Virus record (IMG/VR): IMGVR_UViG_3300036761_000941
Location: 1-23,910 of that record
Reading direction: 5' to 3' (one strand)
From: a virus
DNA length: 23,910 nt
Shown: positions 4,580-23,367 of the stretch, piece by piece
How positions within the stretch are numbered: position 1 is the first letter of the stretch
Layout of the letters: each line of letters starts with the position of its first letter
Made by a program: the position numbers and the translations under genes
The notes under the pieces: model-generated
Seen by the model: only the letters and a program-made list of their open reading frames with translations
The model's database searches: none
What the model was told of the DNA's origin: nothing

Positions 4580-4580
4580 A

Positions 4581-5222: not shown

Positions 5223-5253
5223 CATGCAAAACAAAAAAGAATCGGAGGCGGTG

Positions 5254-7443: not shown

Positions 7444-7451
7444 GAGAAGTC

Positions 7452-7919: not shown

Positions 7920-7929
7920 GAATCGCGAA

Positions 7930-7944: not shown

Positions 7945-7958
7945 AGGAGAATACGACG

Positions 7959-8159
7959 ATGGGATTCATCAAAACCGCAGAGACTGAGACTTCCGCAGTG
8001 CTGGACGAGCAGGGCCGGGTCAACCGGGTGTTCGATCGCCTGGGCAAGGACGAGGCAACGGAATTGGAAATCCTCCGTGCCGCCCGTGCTCTGGGCGTGA
8101 CGGTGGGAACCCTCCGTGAACACTGCGACGTGACCCCCGACGGCCTCAAGCGCCGCTAA
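7959..8159 (+). CDS. Small conserved-looking head-operon protein, unknown function
   Basis: A 66-residue acidic/basic helical protein. AGGAGA (7945-7950) lies eight bases upstream. The C-terminal half (ATELEILRAARALGVTVGTL then REHCDVTPDGLKRR) looks like a helix-turn-helix-like or small helical-bundle segment ('LG-V-T-VGTLREH'). This hints at nucleic-acid or protein binding but is not enough to name a family. It is the first gene of the protease/scaffold/capsid group and its TAA overlaps the AAGGAG of the protease gene. It could be a small regulator or a head assembly factor. Confidence 0.5.
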   Translation: MGFIKTAETETSAVLDEQGRVNRVFDRLGKDEATELEILRAARALGVTVGTLREHCDVTPDGLKRR

Positions 8160-8170
8160 GGAGAACGTGG

Positions 8171-10354
8171 ATGTTTGTGAAGCTGGGGATGGTGGCGGTG
8201 GAGAGCGTCCTGAGCAGGGACGAATTCACTACGCGCCTGGCGGACCGCAAGATCGTAGAGTACGACCCTGAGTACGTTTACGTGGTGGTTCGAGCACTTA
8301 CAGCCGATAAACCTAATTCAAACGGCGACTGCTTCCCGCACGATGAACTGGTGCGCCTGGACCCGGTGCTCCATCGTCCAGTGTACGCTTCCTTCATCGG
8401 GAAGGGCGTCTACATCAACCACCAGCACACCGACGATCCTCGCTACGCCAAGGGCATCATCCTCGACTCGCGCTACGTCGAAGGCAACAAGGAAGACAAG
8501 TATGTTGAGCTTCTCCTGGGCATTGACAAGCAGAAGGACCCAATCTTCGCTCGTGATGTTGAGAGGGGATTGATCAATAAGTTCTCGATGGGTGCTTCGG
8601 TGCAATTCACCAAGTGCTCCGTCTGTCAGAACGAGGCTCGCCGCAAGGAAGAGTTCTGCGAGCACATTGCCAAGCACAAGATGCGCAGCGTTAAGGCTCA
8701 GGACGGGTCTGAAAAGCTCGCCTACGAACTTTGTTACGGTGTAACCTACAACGAGATTTCGGCGGTCTCTGACCCTGCGGATGAGACGGCGCAACTTCTG
8801 CACCGAATTGCCAATTCCACCACGAACACGGAAAACCGCAGCGGAAGTGGCGATAGCGCAAATCCATCCCACGGAACAGTTGTAGTCTTGAACGACATCA
8901 ACGCTCGTTTGAAGAGACTGGAGGCTGCGATAATGGCTAATCGAAGGACTGCTGCTCCCCTACCCTCTGCGGCACCGACGCCTCCGGCGGCAGGACCTGC
9001 CGGACCTGGCTTGGGTGATGATCCGATGGGTGGAGCGCCCACGGATGACCTGATGATGGAGGGCGAGGAAGGCGGTGAGGTGGTTGAGGTTCTCAAGATC
9101 GTGGAAGACCTTGTGACCCATCGCGTGCCTGCGGCCGATGCCGTTCAAGCCCTGGAGCAGATTCTTGGTGGCGACCCCACGGGTCCTACCGACGCACCCG
9201 GTGCAGAGATGGGTGCTCCCGAGCCGCCGCCTGTCGATATGGCCGGTCCGACCGCTGCCGCGTTCAGCACCTGGCTCAGGAAGGTTTCCAAGAGCGTGAA
9301 GGAGAGGTCCATGAAGACCGCTGATGATAAGTCCCCGAAGGTGGACAACCAGTACCCTTACAAGAAGCGTCAGTCCGACCCGAAGCAGTTCCCGAACCCT
9401 GGGCACGACAGCCGGCATGAGAGTCGTCCTGCGGGGGATTTCGCGAGCGACTCCAAGGAGTACGGGAAGCTGACTAACGTGTCGGCCGAGTTCACGTCCA
9501 ACAAAGACCGCCGACTCTCTGGCTGGAGAATTCTCGACGGCGAGACTCCTCTGTACATGGTCACGGGTGGTAACGCCTGGGGCGCTCATCTGAATGAGCA
9601 GTGGGAGCGCTTCGCAAGTCGGGAATACGGCACTGCGCTTGTATCGGCGATTCTCGAAGATGGTCTGGACGAGACGATGACGCGCGTCAACGCCATTAAG
9701 GCGGGTGGCACGACTCCGAAGAATGCGAACGTGCTCGACAACGAGAAGCTTATCCAGGCTGCGGAGGCGAAGGCTGCCGATGTGGCGCAGGAACTGAACG
9801 AGGATTTCGTGGTCCGCTTTGTGGAGGGCATGAAACTCGCTCTGAAGTTGCAGGACAAGAACGTCTTCGACAACCCGATCAAGGGAGCCGCGTGGGAAGT
9901 CCTCACGGCGAACGGCTTCGACGGAAAGCTGGCAGAGAAGATCGCCAGTGGTGCCGTGATCGAGGCGCACTTCGACGAGGCCATGCGCAAGGCGCTGGAG
10001 TACACGGAGATGTCGCCGGAGTCTTTCGAGGAAGTGAAGGCGCAGGCTGAGTCTATGACCGCTCGATCGGTTACGGCTTCGGTTGATACCGAGCACGGTG
10101 CTGGGGCGATCAGTGAGGCTGAGGCTCTTGCGGCCATGGAAGAGTCAACCCTGGAGCATCTGAATCGGCGTGCTAGTCGCAACGTCGGCGGTGTGAAGAT
10201 GCAGCACCCGGGTGAGACTCCGAGCAAGGGTTATGATGCGTCGATCTCGGCGGCTGTCCGCATGGGAAATTCGACAATATCGTCTGCCCCGACCAATGCT
10301 GAAGGGAATCGTCCGCCGGCATCAGCGTACGGTAAGCCTCGGGCGACCGCGTAA
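8171..10354 (+). CDS. Prohead protease fused to scaffold-like C-terminal domain
   Basis: A 727-residue protein. Residues 1 to about 215 look like a prohead serine protease: YINHQHTDDPRYAKGIILDS (81-100) supplies the catalytic His, and NKFSMGASV (136-144) contains the Ser-Met-Gly nucleophile motif. A Cys/His knuckle follows (C149, C152, C163, H165), and then YNEISAVSDPADETA (193-207), the usual end of the fold. Such proteases cleave scaffold and capsid proteins during head maturation. After residue 235 comes a possible coiled coil (LNDINARLKRLEA), a Pro/Ala/Gly-rich acidic stretch, and a long helical region. I read this as the internal scaffold, giving a protease-scaffold fusion. It starts at ATG 8171 behind AAGGAG. 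An in-frame ATG at 8933 appears able to make the scaffold alone. Confidence 0.75.
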   Translation: MFVKLGMVAVESVLSRDEFTTRLADRKIVEYDPEYVYVVVRALTADKPNSNGDCFPHDELVRLDPVLHRPVYASFIGKGVYINHQHTDDPRYAKGIILDSRYVEGNKEDKYVELLLGIDKQKDPIFARDVERGLINKFSMGASVQFTKCSVCQNEARRKEEFCEHIAKHKMRSVKAQDGSEKLAYELCYGVTYNEISAVSDPADETAQLLHRIANSTTNTENRSGSGDSANPSHGTVVVLNDINARLKRLEAAIMANRRTAAPLPSAAPTPPAAGPAGPGLGDDPMGGAPTDDLMMEGEEGGEVVEVLKIVEDLVTHRVPAADAVQALEQILGGDPTGPTDAPGAEMGAPEPPPVDMAGPTAAAFSTWLRKVSKSVKERSMKTADDKSPKVDNQYPYKKRQSDPKQFPNPGHDSRHESRPAGDFASDSKEYGKLTNVSAEFTSNKDRRLSGWRILDGETPLYMVTGGNAWGAHLNEQWERFASREYGTALVSAILEDGLDETMTRVNAIKAGGTTPKNANVLDNEKLIQAAEAKAADVAQELNEDFVVRFVEGMKLALKLQDKNVFDNPIKGAAWEVLTANGFDGKLAEKIASGAVIEAHFDEAMRKALEYTEMSPESFEEVKAQAESMTARSVTASVDTEHGAGAISEAEALAAMEESTLEHLNRRASRNVGGVKMQHPGETPSKGYDASISAAVRMGNSTISSAPTNAEGNRPPASAYGKPRATA
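8875..8886 (+). promoter_or_regulatory. Copy of AACAGTTGTAGT element inside the protease gene
   Basis: AACAGTTGTAGT, identical over 12 bases to the elements at 7931 and 16574, lies inside the coding sequence. It falls exactly at the junction of protease and scaffold regions, about 47 bases before the internal scaffold ATG (8933). Its position suggests an internal promoter or control site for the nested scaffold product. It is followed by CTTG rather than the TATAG/TAGGG seen at other copies. Confidence 0.35.
8933..10354 (+). CDS. Nested in-frame scaffold protein (internal start)
   Basis: An in-frame ATG at 8933 (Met255 of the protease ORF) is preceded by a perfect GGAGG at 8920-8924, eight bases upstream. 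Starting here gives a 473-residue product (MANRRTAAPLPS...) that contains only the scaffold-like part, with no protease residues. The arrangement matches the known lambda logic, in which Nu3 scaffold starts inside the gpC protease gene in the same frame. Expression of this separate product is an inference from the ribosome site and domain boundary. The region contains Pro/Ala/Gly-rich, acidic and long helical segments, as expected for a scaffold. Confidence 0.45.
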   Translation: MANRRTAAPLPSAAPTPPAAGPAGPGLGDDPMGGAPTDDLMMEGEEGGEVVEVLKIVEDLVTHRVPAADAVQALEQILGGDPTGPTDAPGAEMGAPEPPPVDMAGPTAAAFSTWLRKVSKSVKERSMKTADDKSPKVDNQYPYKKRQSDPKQFPNPGHDSRHESRPAGDFASDSKEYGKLTNVSAEFTSNKDRRLSGWRILDGETPLYMVTGGNAWGAHLNEQWERFASREYGTALVSAILEDGLDETMTRVNAIKAGGTTPKNANVLDNEKLIQAAEAKAADVAQELNEDFVVRFVEGMKLALKLQDKNVFDNPIKGAAWEVLTANGFDGKLAEKIASGAVIEAHFDEAMRKALEYTEMSPESFEEVKAQAESMTARSVTASVDTEHGAGAISEAEALAAMEESTLEHLNRRASRNVGGVKMQHPGETPSKGYDASISAAVRMGNSTISSAPTNAEGNRPPASAYGKPRATA

Positions 10355-10380
10355 CCGAAAGAACGCAAATTTTTCCGGGA

Positions 10381-10396
10381 AAACAGTTTAAGTAAT
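10381..10396 (+). promoter_or_regulatory. Diverged copy of the AAACAGTT element before the decoration gene
   Basis: AAACAGTTTAAGTAAT in the 72-base gap between protease/scaffold and the decoration protein matches the core element with two changes (TTTAAG for TTGTAG). It lies 46 bases before the start at 10427. It probably provides or controls extra transcription of the two abundant head proteins that follow. Function is inferred from recurrence and position. Confidence 0.35.
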
Positions 10397-10426
10397 AGAC
10401 ACCCAAGACCTGGGAGGGAATGAGAG

Positions 10427-11188
10427 ATGGCACTGAAGGTAATCACTCCGAGCGCGAATACGGGTTTCGATCCGGTCGGCGCTGACGACTATCGGTCGGG
10501 TATGATCGCGGCTCGCGACAATGACGCCAATGTTGTTGTTTGCGGTTCCGTAAACGACCCCGATGCCGGCACCAAGCCGATCGGTGTCCTGGGCGAGGAT
10601 AGACTTTCGGCAGCCCTCCAGACGACCACGCAGAAGGACGAGGAACTTACGGTTCCGGCGGCTGTCACTACGCCGGCTGTCGCCCTGTCGAAGGACGCCA
10701 TCGTGCCGAATTCCCAGCGTCTGTTCAATGTCACCCTGGACGTCGCTCTGGTGGAGGGCACGGACTACACACTCGTCGATGCGACGGGTGTCGTCACGTT
10801 CATCAACACGGGTAACGTCGATCCGGGTAATATCGTCCAGGCGACGTACACGTTCAAGCTGAACGATACGTTCGAGCAGAATTTCCGCGGTACAAACTTC
10901 AAGGGCAGTGGGGATGATACGGAAGGTAGCAAAAAGGCGACCGTCTGGAAGGGCTGGGGTGAATTCGAGACCGATCAGTTCGTCACCGCTGTTGCCTACA
11001 CGCCTGGTGATCTGCTTCGTGTGACTCTGGTCGGCCACAGCATGGGTGCCGGTCTTCTGACTAACGAAGCCGCGGGCGCAAATGTCGCCGTTGGCCCTTC
11101 GGCCACTCTCGGCATTGCTCGTGTGACTAAGGTTCCGACTGCGAGCGACCCGTTCATCGGATTCGAATTCGTCCCGGCGGCTGCGTAA
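10427..11188 (+). CDS. Probable capsid decoration protein
   Basis: A 253-residue protein immediately before the major capsid gene, with a strong GGGAGG ribosome site. The sequence is beta-rich, lacks Cys after the first 50 residues, and has a repeated Gly/Thr/Val pattern (TDYTLVDATGVVTFINTGN). This resembles Ig-like beta domains of virion surface proteins. Its position between protease/scaffold and major capsid protein is where decoration or head-stabilising proteins usually lie. Its codons look similarly optimised to those of the capsid gene, which suggests high expression. There is no catalytic motif. Alternative: a minor capsid subunit. Confidence 0.55.
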   Translation: MALKVITPSANTGFDPVGADDYRSGMIAARDNDANVVVCGSVNDPDAGTKPIGVLGEDRLSAALQTTTQKDEELTVPAAVTTPAVALSKDAIVPNSQRLFNVTLDVALVEGTDYTLVDATGVVTFINTGNVDPGNIVQATYTFKLNDTFEQNFRGTNFKGSGDDTEGSKKATVWKGWGEFETDQFVTAVAYTPGDLLRVTLVGHSMGAGLLTNEAAGANVAVGPSATLGIARVTKVPTASDPFIGFEFVPAAA

Positions 11189-11237
11189 GCAGACGACGAG
11201 AACAAGGCAAAAGCAAGAGACTAACGGAGGTTAAGAG

Positions 11238-12398
11238 ATGGCTGCTGTAAATCCCTACGTGAGGAATGAGGAAGCCCGCAAGAAGGTTGCGGCACTTCTC
11301 AATCCCGAGTCGCCCAAGGCGTTCGGCGGTGTGACCGCGACGGGCGCTACCGTCAAGTCCGCCAATCGGATGTTCGACGGCAAGAACGAAACTAACGCCT
11401 GGGACAAGAAGGACGCCCTCCGTCAGGCTCAGCATCTGCTCGACCTCGTGGCAAAGGGTGAGGAGCGCATTGGCACTCCCAAGTCCGTCACGGCGTCCAG
11501 CATCTCGCCGTCCGAGCGAGCCGACATCTTCCTTCAGGCCTTCTCCGACCCGAGTGGTCAGGGCTTCGCCAAGATCGGTCAGGAGCTTCTTCTGCCCATC
11601 AAGGAAATCATCGACTATGAGGGTTTCGCCCGTCGAATCCTCAAGACGTACACCCTGGCTCAGGGGCAGGTGAACCGTATCGACCGTGACGTGGACGTTG
11701 CAGCCTTCGTCGTGTCGAGTGACGGTCGTGCCGTCGAGACGCGGGTTTCGGATCGGTACATCTTCCCGCCGGAGTTCGAAGTGACGGCCTTCCCGTCGAT
11801 TCGAATCTCGGAAGTCTTCCAGAAGCAGTTCGATGTTCTGGATCGCGCTCAGGATCGTGCCAAGCAGGCGATCATGCGTCAGGAGGACCAGGGTCTCATC
11901 TCTGTCCTGACTGCCGCTGCTCCGAACTTCAACGATGTGGTGAGCTTCTCCTCGCTCAACCTCCAGGCCCTGGAGTCCATCCGCTTTCAGGTCGAGCGGC
12001 ATCGTCTCGTGTGCTCGAAGTTCCTCATCAACCGTCGGGAGCTTTCCGACATGGTGATCTTCCTCAGTCAGCAGGTTGATCCGGTGACGGAGCGTGAGTG
12101 GCTCATGATGGGCTACGTCGGCCGCATCCTCAATGCGGACATCATCACGACTGCCGGCACTCGCGTCGGTCAGGGCGGTCTCGGTCGCCTTGCGGTCAAC
12201 TGGGAAATCGTGCCTCCGGGCAAGGTGTTCGCGGTTGCTGATCCCGACTATCTCGGTGTGTTCCCCGTCCGTGTGGAACTGATGGCCGAGCCGGCTAACA
12301 AGTTTGTGTTCGGCGAGCCCCGGTACGCATGGCTCTTCTACGAATTGATCAGTCAGGTTGTTATCAACCCTCGTGGAGTAGCCCTCGGCACCAAGTAG
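11238..12398 (+). CDS. Major capsid protein (HK97 fold)
   Basis: A 386-residue protein behind GGAGG (11226-11230). Length, gene order and layout fit an HK97-fold capsid subunit: a charged helical N-terminal arm (residues 1-100), an extended E-loop-like region with many Arg/Asp residues (about 145-185), and a helical P-domain (QKQFDVLDRAQDRAKQAIMR). The C-terminal A-domain has the segment VGRILNADIITTAG and the ending PRYAWLFYELISQVVINPRG, typical of large-phage capsids. The N-terminal segment may be removed by the prohead protease. It uses strongly preferred codons and is followed by an intrinsic terminator, both consistent with the most abundant virion protein. Confidence 0.8.
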   Translation: MAAVNPYVRNEEARKKVAALLNPESPKAFGGVTATGATVKSANRMFDGKNETNAWDKKDALRQAQHLLDLVAKGEERIGTPKSVTASSISPSERADIFLQAFSDPSGQGFAKIGQELLLPIKEIIDYEGFARRILKTYTLAQGQVNRIDRDVDVAAFVVSSDGRAVETRVSDRYIFPPEFEVTAFPSIRISEVFQKQFDVLDRAQDRAKQAIMRQEDQGLISVLTAAAPNFNDVVSFSSLNLQALESIRFQVERHRLVCSKFLINRRELSDMVIFLSQQVDPVTEREWLMMGYVGRILNADIITTAGTRVGQGGLGRLAVNWEIVPPGKVFAVADPDYLGVFPVRVELMAEPANKFVFGEPRYAWLFYELISQVVINPRGVALGTK

Positions 12399-12439
12399 GC
12401 CGAAGACCTCCGCTGGGTGAAACAGCGCAGAATGGAGAA

Positions 12440-12468
12440 GGGTCGCCCGCAAGGGTGGCCCTTTTCTT
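12440..12468 (+). terminator. Intrinsic terminator after the major capsid gene
   Basis: GGGTCGCCC (12440-12448) pairs with GGGTGGCCC (12453-12461) around a GCAA tetraloop. The nine-pair stem includes two G-T pairs and is followed at once by TTTTCTT. It lies 42 bases after the capsid stop and is the clearest rho-independent terminator in the window. Confidence 0.85.
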
Positions 12469-12551
12469 GACCTTCGAACAGGACCTTGACATCATGATAC
12501 TCAGAGAAGATATAGCCTACTGCGCCCCGTGCAAGGCGGCTGTGTAATGAC

Positions 12552-12785
12552 ATGGCGGAAAGACTCGGCGCTTGCCCCCACTGCAAGAAGGAGTTCGAGG
12601 ACAAGCGTGACAAGTACACGCACCTCCAGCGCTGGGGCTGCAAGCAGATGTATGACGACCTCACGGTCTACGCCGCCCCGCTCTGTGCCTGCGGTTGCGG
12701 TCACAAGGTAGAAGCAGCGAAGCGCGACCCTAGCAAGTTCAACAAGTACGTCAAAGGCCACAACAAGCGTGGCAAGGAGAACTAG
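12552..12785 (+). CDS. Small zinc-finger-like protein
   Basis: A 77-residue basic protein with two candidate metal sites: C8-X2-C11 with H24 and C30, then a CACGCG cluster (C45, C47, C49) with H70 in a KYVKGHNKRG tail. The 'C-C-C-G...GHN-RG' ending recurs in small phage and HNH-adjacent proteins, but no HNH catalytic His-Asn pair is evident. Probably nucleic-acid binding. It is the first gene after the capsid terminator. The start at 12552 has no good Shine-Dalgarno site, and a TTGACA at 12486 with an AT-rich stretch downstream may supply transcription. Confidence 0.6.
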   Translation: MAERLGACPHCKKEFEDKRDKYTHLQRWGCKQMYDDLTVYAAPLCACGCGHKVEAAKRDPSKFNKYVKGHNKRGKEN

Positions 12786-12788
12786 ATT

Positions 12789-13550
12789 ATGGCACAGCCT
12801 CAGTTGACTTCGAGCGAGCGTGAAGCGGCGGCACAGGATCGTATCCGCTCGTTCCTCAGTGACCTCTACGGCGAGGAGGAGATGCTCATCGTCCGCAACA
12901 CCACGCAAGGGGTGGTGTCTATCGGCTTTGGTGAGTTGGGCGACAAGGGCGGTAAGGCCATTGATCGTTCGAAGCTTCCCATCGTTCTGACCGACGAGTT
13001 CCCCCGCGACACCTGGATCAAAGCGGCGGACTTCCGTCGCGCCGTCGCGAAAGGCTGGCTCATTCCGGTCAGCCGCAAGGAGTACGAGAGTGAGCTTCTC
13101 GCGCACCGCGACCACCTTGCGCAACTGAACCGCCTCACGTCGAAGGACAACCCCGGGATCACGCATCAAGCTAATGGACCTGATGTTTGGACGGAGAATC
13201 CGTCTGGTGAGCCGATGGTGATCGACGAGGACTCGTCGCAGTTGGCGCCGGCTTCGCGCGACAAGCGGACGCAGCAGTACATGGAGTACGAGTCGCAGCA
13301 GGAGCGCGGCGACCGCCCACCTTCGAACACTCCGCCTGGAGTGGCAGTGATCGGGGACAATCTGTCGTCTCGTTCCCTTGCATTCTGCGAGGAGCAGAAG
13401 CGGGGGAGTATCACCAGCCAACAGGCCATTGAGTGGTTGGATGGTGAGGAGAAGATTCTCAACGACGCCGATCTTACCTACGTCATCGCCCACTCGACTT
13501 TCGATAGCGTCAAGTCCGTCGCTCGCCGCATCCTGGCGGATCGCTCATAG
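12789..13550 (+). CDS. Phage protein of unknown function, probable head-completion region
   Basis: A 253-residue protein; AAGGAG (12774-12779) precedes the ATG by nine bases. It is charged and helical at the N-terminus (SSEREAAAQDRIRSFLSDLY). A beta-type middle (VRNTTQGVVSIGFGELGD) and a long disordered Ser/Pro/Gln-rich linker (about residues 135-190) follow, with a short helical C-terminal domain (SLAFCEEQKRGSITSQQAIE). This order, globular domain then linker then small helical domain, is seen in several virion-associated proteins next to capsid genes. I do not recognise a named family. Its TAG ends two bases before the next start. Confidence 0.5.
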   Translation: MAQPQLTSSEREAAAQDRIRSFLSDLYGEEEMLIVRNTTQGVVSIGFGELGDKGGKAIDRSKLPIVLTDEFPRDTWIKAADFRRAVAKGWLIPVSRKEYESELLAHRDHLAQLNRLTSKDNPGITHQANGPDVWTENPSGEPMVIDEDSSQLAPASRDKRTQQYMEYESQQERGDRPPSNTPPGVAVIGDNLSSRSLAFCEEQKRGSITSQQAIEWLDGEEKILNDADLTYVIAHSTFDSVKSVARRILADRS

Positions 13551-13552
13551 CC

Positions 13553-13876
13553 ATGGCTGGCGAGGGTAGTTTCCGCGACCGGCTCATTGGAGCACTGCCT
13601 CACGCGCTTCGGGCGGGGGTGCAGCAGCGCGTCGCAGGCGAAGCGAATCCTCCGAAGATTCGCAAATTTCATCTCAAGCGCAAAGTGGATGAGTCGGGGG
13701 TCTCGGGTACGGGTATCGTCGCGGTAGGTGTTGTGTTGCCTTCTAAGAGGTGTGTGATAGAGTGGACCTCTAAGCGAACACAGGCCAACTCCCTCGGCAT
13801 CTATGACAACATGGAAGACGTAGAAGCCGTCCATGGTCATGAGGGAGCAACGGAGATCGTCTACGACGAGGAGTAA
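13553..13876 (+). CDS. Conserved small phage protein (GTGIVA...HGHEGAT type)
   Basis: A 107-residue protein starting two bases after the previous stop, so probably translated by coupling; no ribosome site of its own is seen. The core (residues about 47-107) has a pattern I associate with a widespread small phage family of unknown function: SGVSGTGIVAVGVVLPSKRC, then a Trp-containing strand, then YDNMEDVEAVHGHEGATEIV. It looks like one beta-barrel-like domain with an acidic end. The first 40 residues are basic. Recognition is from memory of the pattern and should be treated as moderate. Confidence 0.55.
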   Translation: MAGEGSFRDRLIGALPHALRAGVQQRVAGEANPPKIRKFHLKRKVDESGVSGTGIVAVGVVLPSKRCVIEWTSKRTQANSLGIYDNMEDVEAVHGHEGATEIVYDEE

Positions 13877-13900
13877 AGTAGCTCATGAGACGAGGTGAAC

Positions 13901-14161
13901 ATGCTCACTAAGACGATCGTCATTAACGGTAAATCCAGGGACACAACGCCTGTTGAAGTGTCGGAGGCGACAAGACCCTGGACCGACTTCCTCCTTGCAG
14001 ACGGGACACGGCTTCGCGTTCACGTCGTCATCGACGCTGTGCATCGTCTGGTGGGGGAGTATGATGCCCGGGGCTACCCGATGTACTACGTCAACTCTCG
14101 CACTGTCTCGTCGAGTTCCTCGCCTGAGGAACTTCGCAATCCTCCGCAGGCGGTAGTCTGA
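13901..14161 (+). CDS. Small conserved phage protein, unknown function
   Basis: An 86-residue protein. I choose the ATG at 13901 over the in-frame GTG at 13895 because GAGG (13892-13895) is then five bases upstream. The centre (FLLADGTRLRVHVVIDAVHR followed by a GEYDARGYPMYYV stretch) is a compact beta domain. The pattern 'LADGT-x-VxPV...EYD--G-P-Y-V-S' is one I have seen in small hypothetical proteins of phages and environmental bacteria. Function unknown. Its TGA overlaps the next ATG by one base (TGATG), so the two genes are translationally coupled. Confidence 0.55.
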   Translation: MLTKTIVINGKSRDTTPVEVSEATRPWTDFLLADGTRLRVHVVIDAVHRLVGEYDARGYPMYYVNSRTVSSSSSPEELRNPPQAVV

Positions 14162-14379
14162 TGGCCTCGAACGAACGCGAGGATGCGCATGTCCGTGATC
14201 GCAAGCAGCATCAGGAGCGCTGCCCTGGATGCTTGGGGACCAAGACGCACTTGGTTCCTGGGAGTATCCCAGGAGAGTATTTCATGGGCTGCGATGGCTG
14301 CGGACACACCTGGGTGGGGAGGGATTTCCCCATGAATGAGCAAGGTGAGATGTCTCCTCCCATACCCGAGTTAAAGTAG
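14161..14379 (+). CDS. Small zinc-ribbon protein
   Basis: A 72-residue hydrophilic protein with two CXXC knuckles, C21-PG-C24 and C44-DG-C47, 20 residues apart. This is the standard spacing of a four-Cys zinc ribbon, and GHTW follows the second knuckle. Such modules usually bind nucleic acid or mediate protein contacts. The ATG overlaps the preceding TGA. An 80-base gap with a hairpin follows, so it probably ends a small operon (12552-14379). Confidence 0.6.
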   Translation: MASNEREDAHVRDRKQHQERCPGCLGTKTHLVPGSIPGEYFMGCDGCGHTWVGRDFPMNEQGEMSPPIPELK

Positions 14380-14412
14380 TCCTCCTGCCCCTCTGCCCCG
14401 CTGTTTTAGCCA

Positions 14413-14424
14413 AAAGAGTTGTAT
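14413..14424 (+). promoter_or_regulatory. AAAGAGTTGTAT element with adjacent hairpin
   Basis: AAAGAGTTGTAT is a one- or two-change copy of the recurring AAACAGTTGTAG element. It is 47 bases upstream of the gene at 14460. Directly downstream, CATAGGG (14427-14433) pairs with CCCTGTG (14441-14447), with one G-T pair, and the GAGG ribosome site follows at 14447-14450. The string TTCATAGGG also occurs at 46-54 in front of the first gene of the window, which suggests a shared control region. Confidence 0.35.
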
Positions 14425-14459
14425 TTCATAGGGACCTTTGCCCTGTGAGGTATTAACGA

Positions 14460-15605
14460 ATGCCAATCCTAACCTTACCCGTTACATGTCCTGGCGTCAG
14501 CAGTGAGATCAGGGTTACGAAGGGAACGGCGAAGTCGTTTGAATTCGGCGTCGGCACTGACCTGACGGCAGCTACGGTCCGCATCGACGTGCGCCGTCGC
14601 ATCACGGCTCCCGACATCCTGATCACGAAGGGGATCACGATCCTTGCGCCTGCGACGGATGGGAACGTGCGCCTTGACTTCGTGCCGGCTGATTATGCCG
14701 CTGTGGCGTCGGGCACGTATGTCTTCGATATCATCAAGACTGTGAGCGCAGTCGATACGGTTCTCTTCTCTGGTCGGTTCTTTCTTGAACCCTTTGATCA
14801 GGCCTTCATTGGTTTGATTGAGCCGATCTTGAAGCTCGCCATCGTGGGGACGAGTGAGCGCTTCAGTCTGGAAGTGCGCGACGAGTTGGGGGTCCTTGGG
14901 AATCCCGTCGAGCTACAGGTCGTGGTTCTCGACCCCGCCGACCAGCGCGTCCTCTTCCTCCAGAAGGATGTGGATGTTTCTCTCATAAACCCTGAAGGGG
15001 GCATCTTCTATTTCGATTTCCAGTCGAACCGTGATGGGGACTTCCTTGCGATCTGGACGTACCGCTTCGAGGGTGAGGAGCCGCAGACGGTGGTCAAGAA
15101 TGTGCGCTGGGTGAATCCAGCCATGTTCCGCATGATCCCTGAAGTGCGGCTCTATATCGACAAGTCCCGCAAGGCGAGCAATCGGACCATTGCCTTCAAT
15201 GCGCCAGATGTGTGCGAGTACATCGCGAACAGTGTGCGAGAGTTCAATGCGCAGTCCCCGACCACCGACATCAAGCTAGAGAGTTTTGACGGCGTGTTCA
15301 ACATCTACAAGTCGGTGATTATCGAAGGGGCCATCATTCAAGCGCTGGTCGCACAGGGACTCCTCGCAGTCGATCAGGACTTCCAGTACAACGACAACGG
15401 CATCAGTTTGGCGATTGACCATAGCGCGAAGTTGCAGTCGTGGTATACGACGATCCTCAATCAGTACATCGCAAAAAAGTCGCTCTACAAGAAGAATTTT
15501 TTCGTGCCGACCGTGTACGCACGGACGATTGTTGGGCAGGCGTTCAGCTTGGGATTGGCTAAGGTGCCGGCAAGCACGCTGTCCCGGTTCAGGGGATGGA
15601 TTTAA
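14460..15605 (+). CDS. Virion structural protein, unknown role (baseplate/adaptor-like)
   Basis: A 381-residue protein with GAGG (14447-14450) nine bases before the ATG. Residues 1 to about 110 look like a beta-sandwich of the kind found at the N-terminus of upper baseplate proteins (TAATVRIDVRRRITAPDILI then TYVFDIIKT). A second beta domain spans about 125-220. The C-terminal 150 residues are helical with conserved-looking aromatic and basic residues (LQSWYTTILNQYIAKKSLYK). That region resembles connector or neck subunits. It lies between small head-region genes and accessory genes. A structural role is inferred from composition and context; no named family is certain. Confidence 0.45.
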   Translation: MPILTLPVTCPGVSSEIRVTKGTAKSFEFGVGTDLTAATVRIDVRRRITAPDILITKGITILAPATDGNVRLDFVPADYAAVASGTYVFDIIKTVSAVDTVLFSGRFFLEPFDQAFIGLIEPILKLAIVGTSERFSLEVRDELGVLGNPVELQVVVLDPADQRVLFLQKDVDVSLINPEGGIFYFDFQSNRDGDFLAIWTYRFEGEEPQTVVKNVRWVNPAMFRMIPEVRLYIDKSRKASNRTIAFNAPDVCEYIANSVREFNAQSPTTDIKLESFDGVFNIYKSVIIEGAIIQALVAQGLLAVDQDFQYNDNGISLAIDHSAKLQSWYTTILNQYIAKKSLYKKNFFVPTVYARTIVGQAFSLGLAKVPASTLSRFRGWI

Positions 15606-15662
15606 CTATGGAGATGCGTATTTATGATGGCTCAGCCGTCCTTGCAGTCTTCGAGGTCTGTC

Positions 15663-15935
15663 ATGCGGATCGAGTTCGATTCCCCGCTTGACTTCGACCG
15701 AGTTAAGTGCGAAATTTGTGGGAAGGAAGACGATGACTGGCACGTCATGCACTTCTTGGCTGATGGACTGTGGCGGAAGCTGAGCAAAGGGCGTACTTTA
15801 CGTGAGCAAGGTATTGATGAAGTAGACTCGTCACGTCTGTATTGCATACACGTTTGCACGGAGGCGGTGCTTCGGACGTTTATGTCCTTGTCCGAGATTG
15901 AAGGCTTCCTCGCCACACTTCGGGGAAGGAGATAG
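15663..15935 (+). CDS. Small Cys/His-rich protein
   Basis: A 90-residue protein beginning MRIEFDSPLDFDRVKCEICG. I prefer the ATG at 15663, which has GAGG (15653-15656) six bases upstream. An in-frame ATG at 15624, with GGAG ten bases upstream, would add 13 low-complexity residues. Possible metal ligands are C16-X2-C19, H27, H30 and C61-X-H63-X-C65, so it may be a zinc-binding domain. The rest is helical. No family recognised. Its TAG overlaps the AAGGAG region that serves the next gene. Confidence 0.55.
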   Translation: MRIEFDSPLDFDRVKCEICGKEDDDWHVMHFLADGLWRKLSKGRTLREQGIDEVDSSRLYCIHVCTEAVLRTFMSLSEIEGFLATLRGRR

Positions 15936-15939
15936 CGCC

Positions 15940-16560
15940 ATGTGTCGCGAGGGCTTGATTGTGGGTGGATTCGCCTCAGTCAAGTGGTATTACAAGCCGC
16001 TCCAGTGGGGGCTTCAGAAGGAGGGGTTCGATGTGGAATTCATCCATCCCGCCCCTCGCTTCGATGTCTTCGGCATCAATGTCTGGCCGCTTGAAGTCTT
16101 CCTCGCCAACGCGATCCCTGCCGTCAACGCGATCCCCGGTGATCTGTTCCTTGTCGGTCACAGCTTGGGGGGTATTCAGTCCATTTTGCTGGCAGACCTC
16201 TTCCCCGACAAGATCAGGAAGGTTTTCGCCATTGGCACTCCAGTGTGGGGTTGTCCGCTTCAGATGTATGAGGACGCTATCCGCACAATGCTCAATGTTC
16301 CGCAAGGCGAGTTGGAACGTTTCCGCCAGGAGATTGTCCCGCGCAATGCGAAAAAGATCGTCACGGTGTCTTGTGAAGATGACATCCTCGCGCCTCGTCC
16401 GAAATGTGCAATTGAGGGCGCGACGAACTACGTCGTGACGGCGGACGAGACGGGCAGATCGTCGTCCCACCTGCTCCTGCCGTATTTGGCCGCTACTATT
16501 CGGATCATCTCTGAGGAGACCCGAGCGATTATTGACACTCCTCTTATCCAACCCGCCTGA
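15940..16560 (+). CDS. Alpha/beta hydrolase (lipase/esterase), possible lysis esterase
   Basis: A 206-residue protein. The ATG at 15940 is eight bases after AAGGAG (15926-15931). The nucleophile elbow is G73-H74-S75-L76-G77-G78. An Asp at 147 or 148 (CEDDILAPR) and H177 (SSSHLLLPYL) complete a plausible Ser-Asp-His triad in the correct order. There is no signal peptide and no membrane segment. The early segment (LIVGGFASVKWYYKPLQWGL) matches the opening strand and loop of lipases. Phages of mycolic-acid bacteria encode such hydrolases as LysB, which releases the outer lipid layer during lysis, and that is one possible role here. Alternatives are a virion esterase for surface polysaccharide or an intracellular esterase. 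Confidence 0.75.
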   Translation: MCREGLIVGGFASVKWYYKPLQWGLQKEGFDVEFIHPAPRFDVFGINVWPLEVFLANAIPAVNAIPGDLFLVGHSLGGIQSILLADLFPDKIRKVFAIGTPVWGCPLQMYEDAIRTMLNVPQGELERFRQEIVPRNAKKIVTVSCEDDILAPRPKCAIEGATNYVVTADETGRSSSHLLLPYLAATIRIISEETRAIIDTPLIQPA

Positions 16561-16596: not shown

Positions 16597-17043
16597 ATGA
16601 GCTTGAAGCGCAAGCGCCGTGAGGAAGTGAAGGGTCCATCATGGGCAGCATTGAGAAGTGCAGCCGCCAAAACCGCTCGCACACGTGGTGATGGTACAAA
16701 CCCGAAGGACGCAATTGCTTCCAACAAGCCCCCGCTGGCACTTGTTCCAACCGGGCTACTGATACCCCTATCTCGGGTCATGGAATTGGGTGCTAAGAAG
16801 TACGGCCTGTGGAATTGGCGGGCTACGAAGGTTCGCTATTCTGTCTACATCCATGCGGCGATACGGCACATCCTCTCCGCGATGGATGGAGAGGACCTCG
16901 ATCCTGAGTCGGGTCAGCCTCACATCGCTCACGCCGCTGCCTGCGTAGCGATACTCCTCGATGCGGCATCGGTGGGGACTTTGGTGGATGATCGAGTGAA
17001 GGGGGCAGCGGCACGGTTGATCGTAGAAGCTACCAAGAAGTAG
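16597..17043 (+). CDS. dATP/dGTP diphosphohydrolase-like protein (MazG superfamily)
   Basis: A 148-residue protein. After a basic N-terminal tail, residues 35-120 show the pattern of the phage dATP/dGTP diphosphohydrolase N-terminal family (formerly DUF5664): NPKDAIASNKPPLALVP (35-51), LGAKKYGLWNWR (64-75), then AAIRHILSAMDGEDLDPESG (87-106) and HIAHAAACVAILL (109-121). The acidic residues and His in the helices are the expected metal-binding positions of an all-alpha NTP pyrophosphohydrolase. Family members hydrolyse purine dNTPs and can shift the nucleotide pool. Whether this one acts in base modification or only pool control is unknown. It has its own leaderless-type promoter. Confidence 0.7.
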   Translation: MSLKRKRREEVKGPSWAALRSAAAKTARTRGDGTNPKDAIASNKPPLALVPTGLLIPLSRVMELGAKKYGLWNWRATKVRYSVYIHAAIRHILSAMDGEDLDPESGQPHIAHAAACVAILLDAASVGTLVDDRVKGAAARLIVEATKK

Positions 17044-18167: not shown

Positions 18168-18169
18168 CG

Positions 18170-18376
18170 ATTCGCGTCGTTATCGGTTCACCTGAGTACA
18201 TTACCGACGTGGGGATCGGTGAGCTTGTTTACGACGACTTGACTCGTGACCTCGCAGCTATCGTTCGGATCGAGGCAGATGGTAACAGTTTTGGGGTGTG
18301 GATCGACCACCCGTACCTTGGCGGCGCCCGCCATCCGTGGGAAGTGACTCCGTTGGGACCTTGGCGCAGCATTTGA
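18170..18376 (+). CDS. Small phage protein with apparent ATT start codon
   Basis: A 68-residue frame from ATT 18170 to TGA 18374-18376. There is no ATG, GTG or TTG near its beginning. The first alternative, GTG 18209, lacks a ribosome site and would remove the opening strand. A strong GGGAGGG (18156-18162) lies seven bases before the ATT. The translation has coherent protein character: RVVIGSPEYITDVGIGELVY, then an IVRIEADGNSFGVWIDHP stretch, then GGARHPWEVTPLGPW. This is a small beta domain with a 'YLGG-RHPWEVTP' ending that I associate loosely with small phage proteins. It fills what would otherwise be a 240-base gap, and its stop lies inside the next promoter's -35 box. A -1 frameshift from the upstream gene is a less likely alternative. 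Confidence 0.6.
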   Translation: MRVVIGSPEYITDVGIGELVYDDLTRDLAAIVRIEADGNSFGVWIDHPYLGGARHPWEVTPLGPWRSI

Positions 18377-18401
18377 CAATCGTGCTGTGCTAGTGTACTC
18401 T
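18373..18401 (+). promoter_or_regulatory. Leaderless-type promoter
   Basis: A perfect -35 TTGACA (18373-18378), a 17-base spacer, TACTCT (18396-18401), then six bases to ATG 18408. There is no ribosome site between the -10 and the ATG, so the mRNA is predicted to be leaderless. The TGA stop of the preceding gene (18374-18376) is contained in the -35 hexamer. Confidence 0.75.
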
Positions 18402-18407
18402 TCGACG

Positions 18408-18758
18408 ATGATCCGCCGCAACTGTGAACCGCGTTACGACATCGGCCACCGGGGTCGCCTGGGCGTAGAGACGAACTACGCCGAGCAGTTGCTTGAAGGC
18501 GGCGGGCGGGTCGTTGCGCACAAGGCATCCGTCTGTCGTCAGGATAAGACGAAGAAGAGCCCTCGCCCCTGTCCGCTCCACGGTCGCACGCAGCACCACA
18601 TGCGCGCATGGGCGCAGAACTGGCGTGACGACCGGGGTGTCATGGAGCGCATCTGCCCGCACGGCATCGGGCACCCCGACCCCGACGACCCCGCTTTCCA
18701 GAAGAACGAGTACGAAGGCGTTCATGGATGTGATGGCTGCTGCCGCCCGCCTGCTTGA
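18408..18758 (+). CDS. Cys/His-rich phage protein (CPHGIGHPDPD...HGCDGC type)
   Basis: A 116-residue protein. The ATG at 18408 is chosen over upstream GTG 18387 because it sits six bases after the -10 of a clear promoter. The C-terminus (residues 82-112) has ICPHGIGHPDPDD and VHGCDGCC, with C83, H85, H89, H106, C108 and C111 as possible zinc ligands. I recall this 'C-HG-GHPDPD...HGCDGC' signature from many small actinobacteriophage proteins of unknown function. A second Cys/His pair (CPLHGRTQHH, 55-64) lies in the basic middle. A nucleic-acid or regulatory role is plausible. Its TGA lies in the -35 box of the following promoter. Confidence 0.6.
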   Translation: MIRRNCEPRYDIGHRGRLGVETNYAEQLLEGGGRVVAHKASVCRQDKTKKSPRPCPLHGRTQHHMRAWAQNWRDDRGVMERICPHGIGHPDPDDPAFQKNEYEGVHGCDGCCRPPA

Positions 18759-18783
18759 CATTCGCCAATCCCTGTGGTAAGAT
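18755..18783 (+). promoter_or_regulatory. Leaderless-type promoter of the RNA-repair operon
   Basis: TTGACA (18755-18760), a 17-base spacer, TAAGAT (18778-18783), then six bases to GTG 18790. This is the best sigma-70-like promoter in the window. The upstream gene's TGA (18756-18758) lies within the -35. No Shine-Dalgarno site separates it from the start codon, so the kinase/phosphatase mRNA should be leaderless. Confidence 0.8.
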
Positions 18784-18789
18784 AGCCGC

Positions 18790-19722
18790 GTGAGGACAAT
18801 CCTCCTCCTCGTCGGCATCCCGGCTAGCGGGAAGTCCACCTTCGCGAAGGAGCACGTCCGCAAGGACCCGACCTACAAGCGGGTCAACAAGGACGAGCTT
18901 CGCTTCATGGTTCATGACGAGGACTTCAAGGGCTTCGACCGGAAGAAGGAGGACTTCATCGTCAAGGTGAGGGATGATCTGATCGTCCGTGCCCTCGATG
19001 AGGGCTACAACGTCCTCGTGGACGACACGAACATCGCGGGCAAGCATCTCGCCCGCGTGCAGGAGATCGCGGAGAAGTGGGGAAGGGAGCACAACGAACC
19101 CGTCACGATCGAGGAGAAGCTGTTCGATACTCCGCTGGAGGAGTGTCTGCGGCGGAACAAGGCGCGAACGGGACCTCGGCGGGTTCCCGACAAGGTGATT
19201 AAGGACATGCACCGTCAACTGAATCAGGACAAGGGGGTTCGTCCCTACCGCCCTTTCGTTGTAGGTCTGCCGGAGTGCATCGTCACCGACATGGACGGCA
19301 CTGCCTCCTTCCTCAACGGTCGGAACCCCTACGACGCCAAGGGTTGCATCAACGACTTGTCGAACGAGCCCGTCGTGGGGCTGCTGCACGACCTCATGCA
19401 CCGTTACGCTATTGTCGTAGTGACCGGCCGGGAGGACAAGGACCGCGAGGAGACGGAACAGTGGCTTCGTAACCATGGTCTGCGCTTCGCGGGCGCTCAT
19501 GACGGTCGTGAGGACGGTGCTCGTGTGACGGGTATTGTGGCGGTCCACATGCGCAAGACGGGCGACAAGCGAAAGGACTCCATCATCAAGCGCGAAATTT
19601 ACGAGGCGCACATCCTCCCGCACTTCAACGTCAAGTTCGTGCTGGACGACCGCAATCAGGTCGTGGACGCCATACGGGACATGGGCATCGCGGTTTTCCA
19701 AGTTGCACCTGGAGACTTTTAG
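18790..19722 (+). CDS. pseT: T4-type polynucleotide 5'-kinase / 3'-phosphatase
   Basis: A 310-residue protein, close to the 301 of T4 PseT, with both domains. The kinase has P-loop GIPASGKS (9-16), NKDELR (33-38, with the catalytic Asp35 and Arg38), VDDTN (77-81) and RTGPRRVPDKVI (126-137). The phosphatase of the HAD type has DMDGT (167-171, nucleophile Asp167), VVTGRED (210-216) and FVLDDRNQVVDAIRDMGI (283-300). It ends QVAPGDF like the T4 enzyme. It heals broken RNA or DNA ends by phosphorylating 5'-OH and removing 3'-phosphate or 2',3'-cyclic phosphate, readying them for ligation. In T4 this repairs tRNA cut by host anticodon nucleases. It starts at GTG six bases after a -10 box and leads an operon with a RlaP-type gene. 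Confidence 0.92.
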   Translation: MRTILLLVGIPASGKSTFAKEHVRKDPTYKRVNKDELRFMVHDEDFKGFDRKKEDFIVKVRDDLIVRALDEGYNVLVDDTNIAGKHLARVQEIAEKWGREHNEPVTIEEKLFDTPLEECLRRNKARTGPRRVPDKVIKDMHRQLNQDKGVRPYRPFVVGLPECIVTDMDGTASFLNGRNPYDAKGCINDLSNEPVVGLLHDLMHRYAIVVVTGREDKDREETEQWLRNHGLRFAGAHDGREDGARVTGIVAVHMRKTGDKRKDSIIKREIYEAHILPHFNVKFVLDDRNQVVDAIRDMGIAVFQVAPGDF

Positions 19723-19723
19723 G

Positions 19724-20200
19724 ATGACAGCACAGGAAGCGGTAGAGGACGCAGTAGTCGTCCTACGAGGGAAGATACGTCGCCTCCAGCCTGACCAGGG
19801 ACGGATATCCAGGCGGAACGCTCGACGGGCGGTGTGGGGCGCCATGAAGGCGCTCCGCAACGCTCTCCAGTCGCACTACCCTCGGATCGAGCGCACCCCT
19901 GACGATGCCAGTACCCGGAGCTACGTCGTGGACATCTTCGAGAAGGCGCACCGTGAGGGCCGGCGTCTCTTTGCTGACCGATGGCGTCTTGTTCGACACC
20001 ACGACTTTGGACTCTATGAACGTCGCCCACCGAACTTCCCGGATTTCATGACTTTCCGGTCGGGAATTTACACCCTTGCGCCGATGAACGTCCGTGACGC
20101 TACGAGGGCTGCACTCTGGTGTAAGAATCATCGGGTTGACACTATCTTCCGTCTGCGACGCCATGGTGATACGGAAGGTCTCGTCGCGGATATTCTATGA
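19724..20200 (+). CDS. Basic protein of unknown function in RNA-repair operon
   Basis: A 158-residue protein. The ATG at 19724 lies two bases after the kinase stop, with GGAG (19711-19714) nine bases upstream. It is Arg-rich, with a helical N-terminal half (LRGKIRRLQPDQGRISRRNA then RRAVWGAMKALRN) and a more mixed C-terminal half (FPDFMTFRSGIYTLAPMNVR). No family recognised and no enzyme motif visible. The high positive charge suggests nucleic-acid binding. Its end overlaps the next start (ATGA at 20197-20200), so it is co-translated with the RlaP-type nucleotidyltransferase. Its placement between two RNA-end enzymes makes an RNA-related role the natural hypothesis. Confidence 0.6.
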   Translation: MTAQEAVEDAVVVLRGKIRRLQPDQGRISRRNARRAVWGAMKALRNALQSHYPRIERTPDDASTRSYVVDIFEKAHREGRRLFADRWRLVRHHDFGLYERRPPNFPDFMTFRSGIYTLAPMNVRDATRAALWCKNHRVDTIFRLRRHGDTEGLVADIL

Positions 20201-21177
20201 ACCGCAGCGTCATCACTGAGCACTACAAGGGGGACCTCCCCTGGCTGGTTGAATCAACCATCTTGCTCGTCAAGGGGGGATCGCAGGCTCTTGGCACGAA
20301 TACTCCTGAGAGCGACCTTGATGTAGACGGCATCTGCATCCCGCCGAAGCGGTATTTCACAGGCTACCTGCATCGCTTCGAGCAAGCGGTGCAACATGAG
20401 CCTGACGTGGTGATCTACGACCTCCGGAAGTATTTTCAACTGGCCGCTGATTGCAACCCGAATGTCATCCAGGCGATGTGGGTGGACCCGAGTGACTACC
20501 TCTTCATCGACGATTTCGGCCGGTGGCTCATCCAGCACCGCGCGGATTTCCTTTCGCGGAAGGTCAAGCACACCTTCTCCGGCTATGCCTTCGCGCAGTT
20601 GAAGCGTATCAAAACACACCGGAAGTGGTTGCTCAATCCTCCGAAGGACAAGCCAGGGCGGAAAGCCTTTGGTCTCCCTGAGACGACGCTTGTCTCGGCG
20701 GATCAGCGCGGCGCTATCGAAGCCCTCGGACCGATGGCGTTGCAGCAGGTAGGCGTGAACGTCATGCAGGTGTACGAGCGTGAGCGGGCCTACCACAACG
20801 CCATGACCGAGTGGAGTCAGTACCTCAACTGGAAGAAGACCCGCAACCCGAAGCGTGCCGAGCTTGAGGCGAAGTTCGGCTATGATTGCAAGCACGCGAT
20901 GCACCTCGTCCGCCTCATGCGGATGTGCCGAGAGATTTTGGCTACGGCGAAGGTACAGGTGCGCCGTCCTGATTGGGAGGAGCTTCTTGCGATCCGCAAT
21001 GGCGCCTGGGAGTATGATCAGCTTGTGGAGTGGGCTGAGCAGCAGGATAGCGAATTGACGGAATTGACGAATATCAGCCCGCTCCCGCAGGCGCCTGATC
21101 GTGTATCTTTGGATCGTCTTTGCCGACGGATAGCGGAGGCTCATTTCTCAATTGTGGTAGATTCTCGCTTCGACTGA
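20197..21177 (+). CDS. RlaP-type nucleotidyltransferase (polymerase beta superfamily)
   Basis: A 326-residue protein starting within the ATGA overlap. Residues 26-44 (KGGSQALGTNTPESDLDVD) are the polymerase-beta nucleotidyltransferase signature: G28-S29 and the catalytic pair D40-X-D42. The following GICIPP...DVVIYDLRKYFQLAADCN and NPNVIQAMWV match the RlaP family (RNA-ligase-associated pol beta; formerly YcgL-like). A third acidic residue lies in VVIYDLRK. The C-terminal 200 residues are helical and basic. Family members are predicted to add nucleotides to RNA ends during repair. Adjacency to PseT strongly supports an RNA-repair role. No RNA ligase is present in this window; it may be elsewhere in the genome or supplied by the host. 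Confidence 0.75.
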   Translation: MNRSVITEHYKGDLPWLVESTILLVKGGSQALGTNTPESDLDVDGICIPPKRYFTGYLHRFEQAVQHEPDVVIYDLRKYFQLAADCNPNVIQAMWVDPSDYLFIDDFGRWLIQHRADFLSRKVKHTFSGYAFAQLKRIKTHRKWLLNPPKDKPGRKAFGLPETTLVSADQRGAIEALGPMALQQVGVNVMQVYERERAYHNAMTEWSQYLNWKKTRNPKRAELEAKFGYDCKHAMHLVRLMRMCREILATAKVQVRRPDWEELLAIRNGAWEYDQLVEWAEQQDSELTELTNISPLPQAPDRVSLDRLCRRIAEAHFSIVVDSRFD

Positions 21178-21183
21178 CCTGTC

Positions 21184-21192
21184 AAATAGTTG
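21184..21192 (+). promoter_or_regulatory. Weak copy of the AAA-AGTTG element
   Basis: AAATAGTTG in the 22-base gap before the GTG at 21200 matches the first half of the recurring element (AAACAGTTG, one change). It is followed by AAAGGG, which may serve as a very close ribosome site. Listed because of position; alone it could be chance. Confidence 0.2.
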
Positions 21193-21199
21193 AAAGGGT

Positions 21200-22227: not shown

Positions 22228-22914
22228 ATGTGGTGGATTACGGCGGCGGATGCGCTGCGAAGTCTCTATCTCCGGTTGGTGAAGAAGTACCATCCCGATT
22301 TGGCATTGAGTCAGGTGGACAAGCAGCAGCGCCACGAGATGATGATTGCCATAAATAAAGCATGGGAGGGTGAAGATTCCGCCACACTCCAAGCGATAGA
22401 TGCTACGGGGAAGGTCCCTCCACCGCCCTCGCGCTCCCAGCCCTGGCCCGGTGCCCGACCGTCGCCTGAGTGGGAAAGGACTCCTGGTTCCGGGGCGCCA
22501 CGTCGCCCCCGCCCTCGCTCTCAATCGAATTATGGTGAGGGGATGGCGGAGGGAAAAGCGAAGGACCTTCGTCTGTGGGCGAAGTATCTGCGTGGGGTTG
22601 CTACGGAGATGGCTTCCTTCGGTTATACTGAGGCGGATATTAACACATCCGCCGGAGGACCCGCTGTCGATGGGGAAGTAAACGGTTACTTTTTTTCTCC
22701 TGGGAAGGAGTTCGGCGCCTATATTCAAGCGGGAAGTTCACGCAGCAGACCCTCTCCTATCATGGCACGTTGGACAGCACGGGAAGTGCGTGGAAAGCAC
22801 ACACAAACTGGACCAAATCAGTGGTTTCCTACGATCCCTCACCCGCGCATGATGGCTATACGGCTAAACGCTATTGCAGAACGACAGAATCGTGAGAAGG
22901 CGTCGGAGTATTAG
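22228..22914 (+). CDS. J-domain (DnaJ-like) protein
   Basis: A 228-residue protein beginning two bases after the previous stop. Residues 6-47 form a shortened J domain: helix II with the invariant HPD tripeptide (LYLRLVKKYHPDLA, H22-P23-D24) and helix III (QQRHEMMIAINKAWE). Helix I is almost absent. HPD activates the ATPase of Hsp70/DnaK. A Pro/Ser/Arg-rich linker (about 62-100) joins a C-terminal domain (KAKDLRLWAKYLRGVATEMA; then a GEVNGYFFSPGKEFGAYI stretch) that I do not recognise and that may select the client. A phage J protein could recruit host DnaK for virion assembly or replication. Translation probably couples to the upstream gene, as no strong ribosome site is seen. Confidence 0.65.
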   Translation: MWWITAADALRSLYLRLVKKYHPDLALSQVDKQQRHEMMIAINKAWEGEDSATLQAIDATGKVPPPPSRSQPWPGARPSPEWERTPGSGAPRRPRPRSQSNYGEGMAEGKAKDLRLWAKYLRGVATEMASFGYTEADINTSAGGPAVDGEVNGYFFSPGKEFGAYIQAGSSRSRPSPIMARWTAREVRGKHTQTGPNQWFPTIPHPRMMAIRLNAIAERQNREKASEY

Positions 22915-22917
22915 GAT

Positions 22918-23367
22918 ATGGCCTTGCACAACTTCGGCATTGTGGACTACACTCGCCTCTATCGAGGCGCCCAGCCCGACGAGAAGGGTTACACCGACCT
23001 GTGGCAGTTGGGGGTGCGCGAGATCATGACGTTGAACTCGGCGGACCCGAACAGCTTTGGGTGGAGTGGGACGGTACTCGCACGAGTCATGAATGGGATG
23101 GAGTCGTTGCTCGAAGTCGAGAAGATCGTAGGGGACCTGAGGCGTTCAATCGAAGTGGGACGGACGGTGTTTGTTCACTGCACGCACGGGCGTGACCGCA
23201 CGGGTTGTGTTATCGGGGCCTACCGTATCATTGAATGTGGATGGAACTTCGCGAAGATGGAAGAAGAACGGTTGCTCTACGGTGAGAAATTCGTCCTTGA
23301 AGTGGTAGATGAGAACGTTATGCAGGTGCTTCATGCCCTCGCGAAGAAAAAAGGACTGGATTACTAA
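22918..23367 (+). CDS. Dual-specificity/tyrosine phosphatase
   Basis: A 149-residue single-domain protein. The PTP loop HCTHGRDRTG (87-96) has nucleophile C88 and R94 in the CX5R spacing, preceded by hydrophobic VFV. The N-terminal LYRGAQPDEKGYTDLWQLGV (14-33) and IMTLN (36-40) match the substrate-facing start of DSP-type phosphatases. An Asp in SADPN (41-45) may be the general acid. It should dephosphorylate phosphotyrosine, phosphoserine/threonine or another phosphate ester; the substrate is unknown. It has no signal peptide and acts in the cytoplasm. The gene follows the J-domain gene by three bases and its TAA overlaps the next ATG (TAATG), so the three genes form a coupled unit. Confidence 0.8.
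   Translation: MALHNFGIVDYTRLYRGAQPDEKGYTDLWQLGVREIMTLNSADPNSFGWSGTVLARVMNGMESLLEVEKIVGDLRRSIEVGRTVFVHCTHGRDRTGCVIGAYRIIECGWNFAKMEEERLLYGEKFVLEVVDENVMQVLHALAKKKGLDY

Follow-up and report, generated by a model that had tools for sequence, protein, structure and literature searches.

The T4 enzyme Pnkp clears 2',3'-cyclic or 3' phosphates and phosphorylates the 5'-OH left by anticodon nucleases, and DNA ends are a further substrate. In T4, the pair pseT (Pnkp)/rnlA repairs tRNA against PrrC. Jumbo phages with RNA repair combining RlaP, PNK-HAD proteins and ATP-dependent ligases have already been described (PMC7824862). In that report, which cites earlier work of the same group, RlaP is predicted to restore the nucleotide(s) lost at an RNA break before sealing, for example the wobble base taken out by RloC, and nucleotide addition to RNA ends is there predicted for the family as a whole. 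Although many phages encode RlaP, our literature search found no report demonstrating its reaction. In bacteria, a Pnkp1-Rnl-Hen1 complex is known (PMC4411300).

The window analysed here takes in the whole of a linear record (23,910 bases) from a large bacterial virus, and is probably a fragment. It contains the genes of a T4-type polynucleotide 5'-kinase/3'-phosphatase (PNK), of an orphan basic protein (MID, for middle gene) and of an RlaP-family pol-beta nucleotidyltransferase (Table 1). The PNK is the same two-domain enzyme as in T4, homologous end to end. The T4 pathway, however, is devoid of RlaP and MID, whereas the genes studied here lie without ligase in the fragment, are inserted among structural genes and have their own promoters. 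The cassette shares with the jumbo-phage repair its enzyme families and the same predicted heal-refill-seal logic, but it differs by a direct and compact PNK-MID-RlaP operon, by the lack of a ligase and by the orphan MID. Pnkp1 is related to the PNK, but no Rnl or Hen1 was found in the window.

The Streptomyces phages BRock (gp106 zinc finger, gp109 PNK, gp110 RlaP) and GiJojo (gp105, gp107, and gp110 as zinc-finger homologue) also have nearly adjacent PNK and RlaP genes, with a zinc-finger homologue within about 1 kb of PNK and a ligase elsewhere in their genomes. They differ from the present locus by the opposite gene order, a short RlaP (about 230 aa) and the absence of MID. The loci L207 and L208 display the same order PNK-small gene-RlaP with overlapping genes, but they have an upstream ligase, small genes unrelated to MID and the short form of RlaP. 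The cooperation of PNK, RlaP and ligase (PMC7824862) and the occurrence of PNK-RlaP without an adjacent ligase in deposited phages are already known; the new element is a version that is compact, inserted and under promoters of its own, and that includes one orphan gene.

Genes and signals of the PNK-MID-RlaP operon

Table 1. Positions in the window of the cassette, its genes and its promoter-like sites.
Feature	Position	Strand	Characteristics
Cargo cassette, ~3 kb	18168-21199	+	flanked by metallophosphoesterase gene (to 18167) and virion structural gene (from 21200)
Promoter-like TTGACA-N17-TACTCT	18373-18401	+	6 bases before ATG 18408 (zinc-finger gene)
Small zinc-finger-like Cys/His-rich protein, 116 aa	18408-18758	+	conserved C/H motif ...CPHGIGHPDPDD...GVHGCDGCCR
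Promoter-like TTGACA-N17-TAAGAT	18755-18783	+	ends 6 bases before PNK GTG 18790
PNK, T4-type polynucleotide 5'-kinase/3'-phosphatase, 310 aa	18790-19722	+	GTG start; Pfam, PHROGs and PDB matches
MID, orphan basic protein, 158 aa, pI 11.04	19724-20200	+	position; no relatives found in the collections searched
RlaP-family pol-beta nucleotidyltransferase, 326 aa	20197-21177	+	PF10127, phrog_388

A preliminary description of this DNA had reported three consecutive genes, coding for a PseT-like end-healing kinase/phosphatase, a basic protein of 158 residues and an RlaP-type pol-beta nucleotidyltransferase. The three open reading frames are all present on the + strand at the positions given, and the three identifications are borne out by the data below. 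The PNK matches the Pfam families HAD_PNKP (1.1e-40) and AAA_33 (4.7e-21) and, over residues 1-310, the PHROGs family phrog_505, polynucleotide kinase (4.3e-80), and the structure of T4 Pnkp (1ltq; 1.8e-49 with phmmer). Its second-best solved relative is Pnkp1 (4xrp, 6.1e-39). In the kinase half, the residues K15, D35, R38 and R126, common to the relatives, are kept with the P-loop GIPASGKST. The phosphatase half has kept D167 and D169 (in DMDGT), R214, K267, D286 and D287 (the two latter in DDR 286-288). One chain thus contains the P-loop GxxxxGKS/T, the catalytic D/R residues and the HAD signature DxDGT that define the T4-type Pnkp.

The RlaP protein is recognized by PF10127 (1.8e-18; 67.6 bits, above the curated cut-off of 23) and by phrog_388 (2.8e-60). 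Its pol-beta motif is intact: in the alignment with relatives G28-S29, D40 and D42 are invariant and D70 is nearly invariant. In the structure model (pLDDT 95.8), the motif residues are localized at or beside three core strands (21-27, 42-47 and 70-75), in agreement with a pol-beta fold. A search by sequence found no solved relative. By fold, the best matches were kanamycin nucleotidyltransferase and HalB, with MntA further down, all with a low TM-score; the nearest solved folds are those of enzymes acting by adenylylation of antibiotics or proteins, or making oligo-dA. With TM-scores this low, the substrate is not readable from the fold alone. Most of the phage relatives measure about 370-390 aa; the present protein is shorter than these by about 60 residues in the middle. 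It ends with a helical domain containing the strongly conserved sequence R..N..R..E...G.D.KH..H..RL.

Of the proteins of the window that were compared, none is more basic than MID, with its 31 K/R against 19 D/E. Its frame stayed open in 93 of 20,000 shuffles, and its codon score (0.083) is weak but positive, comparable to that of other small genes of the window. As MID exactly fills the gap between its neighbours, with a one-base spacing on one side and an ATGA overlap on the other, we consider it as a real gene. No relatives were found in Pfam, PHROGs, NCBIfam, PADLOC or the PDB sequences, nor by tblastn in phage and plasmid records, nor by BLAST against all fetched loci. Pattern scans of viral contigs and species-genome contigs also recovered none, these scans requiring near-exact stretches of 8 residues that distant relatives may escape. 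The structure model obtained from the single sequence is poor (pLDDT 48).

The gap between PNK and MID amounts to one base (TAG 19720-19722, G 19723, ATG 19724) and not to two as first reported, whereas the reported ATGA overlap of MID and RlaP is found at 20197-20200. Of the single promoter previously proposed, the pattern before PNK is confirmed, but a second one of the same geometry is present at 18373. The arrangement TTGACA-N17-TANNNT-N6-RTG occurs twice in the window versus 0 in 100 shuffles. The region has no general excess of promoter-like sites (3 found versus 4.1 expected), so that the case for promoters rests on the paired geometry. Because the downstream promoter ends 6 bases before the start codon, the PNK mRNA is probably leaderless, its transcript starting at or within 1-2 bases of this codon. 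The zinc-finger gene, starting at 18408, is probably leaderless as well.

This zinc-finger gene is a fourth gene, immediately upstream, that the initial three-gene set had overlooked. Its product displays a weak match to RMF (0.018), and no family model was found for its family (CPHGxGHPDPD...HGCDGCCR), which has members in 29 phage records, the majority of them from phages of Gordonia, Streptomyces and Mycobacterium. Homologues are located beside PNK in several actinophages and directly upstream of PNK in the contigs L198, L202, L203 and L211-L213. Others, in the phages Forza, Bantam, Skog, Sixama and others, have no PNK nearby. Since homologues occur both with and without PNK, the zinc-finger gene is a frequent but not obligatory companion of the latter.

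Insertion among structural genes

That the whole block is inserted had escaped the preliminary description. Close relatives, according to the identity of the major capsid protein (MCP), are L101 (97%), L107 (91%) and L104/L106 (83-84%). L107 has its counterparts of both flanking genes next to each other (5899 and 5928; 28-bp gap), and the entire block is absent. Neither L104 nor L106 contains the cassette, and other genes occupy this stretch. Since the flanking genes adjoin directly in L107, the sequence comparison identifies the block as an insertion at a cargo site within the structural operon. The block is missing from each of the three relatives in which the site is covered, which favours a gain in this phage rather than a loss in the relatives. 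The GC content of the block (59.3%) is only slightly above that of the rest of the window (57.0%) and adds little to the case for insertion.

The metallophosphoesterase gene was considered as a possible member of the repair set. It was rejected and is regarded as a backbone gene, because L107, which has no cassette, still contains its homologue, and because the neighbourhoods of PNK or RlaP yielded no other. By eye, the stretch preceding the same structural gene in L104 and L106 (10850-12306 in L104) contains, in place of the cassette, one gene that is nucleotide-kinase-like and one that is 3'-5' exonuclease-like. A second cargo site is observed at 22228-23367, where a J-domain-like gene (DnaJ, 8e-4) is accompanied by a dual-specificity phosphatase (Y_phosphatase2, 1.6e-11, and a weaker PTP-SAK match); the genes flanking it adjoin directly in L104 and L106. 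The structural operon also includes at 16597-17043 a protein resembling the N-terminal part of dATP/dGTP diphosphohydrolase (9e-28), which is kept in L107. Concerning the structural genes of positions 1-16000, they resemble those of Virus Rctr197k (capsid 43%, portal 45%), which comes from a DAMO/AAA enrichment culture, and more distantly those of Bacillus phage G and of Erwinia jumbo phages.

Linkage of PNK, RlaP and RNA ligase in other phages

We have surveyed 50 whole records, 49 of which were chosen for the presence of RlaP, the last one being Rctr197k. Matches above cut-off were obtained for PNK in 19 records, for Rnl1-type ligase in 11, for RtcB-type ligase in 7 and for Rnl2-type ligase in 32, the Rnl2 profile being one that may also match DNA ligases, so that a lone weak match does not prove the presence of an RNA ligase. 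The genes of PNK and RlaP are at most 10 kb apart in 17 of the 19 records containing both (mean of 2.0 for random placement), although many contigs are mutually related and do not represent 17 independent cases. A match to Rnl1 or Rnl2 ligase is present in 19/19 of the records with PNK and RlaP. Among 80 loci anchored on PNK, RlaP was detected in the available flank of 36, of which 33 also contain a ligase. This association agrees with the preliminary description, which had seen in these genes a phage RNA-repair-type set.

The gene order is variable. In L207, an Rnl1 gene (8766-9992), PNK (9989-10873), two small genes and RlaP (11425-12108) have overlapping frames and form one operon. Gordonia phage Trax displays the order PNK-ligase-...-RlaP-...-Ro protein-tRNAs, and Vibrio phage D181 the order CCA enzyme, RlaP, Thg1, ligase, PNK; in both phages PNK, ligase and RlaP are at short distances from one another. 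In contigs of the L198/L203 type, the ligase is localized just upstream of the zinc-finger-PNK pair. As to the expected conservation of the three-gene order in other phages, the succession PNK-small gene(s)-RlaP does recur in L207 and L208; however, the two small genes are unrelated to MID, and no MID homologue was found in any collection.

No RNA ligase was found in the 23.9-kb fragment, and no tRNA gene in the window. The lack of an adjacent ligase had been considered notable, and a search for one elsewhere in the genome had been proposed. This view finds no support in that form, because only a fragment is available, and because distant ligases exist in BRock, GiJojo and the largest near relative, G044 (the contig of L104; 139.5 kb, MCP 84%). 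G044 contains two RNA ligases, of Rnl2 type at 51.2 kb and of Rnl1 type at 56.6 kb, whereas its capsid genes are far off, at 123-139 kb. By analogy with these ligases, which are far from the site corresponding to the cassette, the ligase of the present phage is probably encoded elsewhere in its genome, outside the 24-kb fragment. No match to PNK or RlaP was found in G044, and the ligase of this lineage can consequently do without the cassette.

Proposed role and alternative explanations

We interpret the block as an acquired cargo cassette for RNA end-healing, probably with nucleotide replacement, directed against host RNases that cut tRNA and acting with a ligase supplied in trans (probability about 0.7). 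Cutting of tRNA by host RNases produces ends with a 2',3'-cyclic phosphate and a 5'-OH, which the PNK, given its strong homology to T4 Pnkp, would turn into 3'-OH and 5'-phosphate. RlaP would then restore the lost nucleotides, such as the wobble base removed by RloC, following the prediction made in PMC7824862. Finally, an ATP-dependent ligase of Rnl1 or Rnl2 type, presumably encoded elsewhere in the genome, would join the ends. The cassette would in this manner add healing and refilling to a ligase already present in the phage. At this site, RNA-repair genes are cargo in one phage and are lacking in its close relatives, which suggests that lineages owning a ligase may gain healing and refilling later. 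With PNK, MID and RlaP in one operon and no ligase between them, the locus is also a convenient set for testing nucleotide replacement by RlaP.

Three other explanations were weighed. RlaP could adenylylate a host RNase toxin, as MntA/MNT do on HEPN toxins, or another protein, while PNK would heal the existing breaks. Pairs of a small gene and a nucleotidyltransferase gene overlapping by ATGA look like MNT-HEPN operons, and the MID/RlaP pair recalls them; the fold matches of RlaP include MntA (7bxo, 6m6u), MNT (7ae9), ANT(4') and HalB, all with low TM-scores. By sequence, however, the protein belongs to RlaP/phrog_388, whose members are found beside RNA ligases, CCA-adding enzyme and Thg1, and its C-terminal helical domain is unlike MntA, the solved chains of which have about 125 aa. 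Searches of Pfam, PHROGs, NCBIfam and PADLOC detected neither a HEPN domain in MID nor an MNT match in RlaP, and we hold this explanation to be unlikely.

That the block represents the decayed remnant of a repair module, which has lost its ligase and is itself being lost, could account for the empty position upstream of the zinc-finger-PNK pair, where contigs of the L198/L203 type have their ligase. But all genes are intact and tightly coupled, the catalytic residues are kept, the two promoters are of the same design and the ligases of G044 indicate that the lineage can hold one elsewhere; decay is quite unlikely. An action of PNK and RlaP on DNA or nucleotides during replication or packaging, rather than on RNA, appears very unlikely. 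T4 Pnkp is active on DNA ends and the dATP/dGTP diphosphohydrolase-like gene is situated just upstream (16597-17043), but the neighbourhoods of the relatives mostly contain RNA ligases, CCA enzyme, Thg1, Ro/TROVE protein and tRNAs, and the close relatives devoid of the cassette still replicate.

Within the cassette, MID and the zinc-finger protein may be RNA-binding accessories or unrelated passengers, and for MID the role of RNA-binding accessory is at most a fair guess. It is doubtful, although conceivable, that MID founds a new family of RNA-repair accessories and that the cassette constitutes a self-contained, leaderless 'heal and refill' module upgrading a ligase already owned. Examples would be a cationic adaptor by which cleaved tRNA is presented to PNK and RlaP, or an end-processing enzyme of a new type. 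A resemblance of MID to the small zinc-ribbon protein found beside PNK in L050, L070, L082 and L089, based on a WVxDxxxAxLYxK-like stretch, was rejected since 17 of 250 controls score equally. Small basic proteins (pI 9.0-9.6) are encoded between RlaP and PNK in L050, L070, L089 and L188, and their homology to MID is not detectable. In these four loci, which belong to a different phage group, a small zinc-ribbon protein whose C-terminus is basic and coiled is located immediately upstream of PNK, in the order RlaP-zinc ribbon-PNK.
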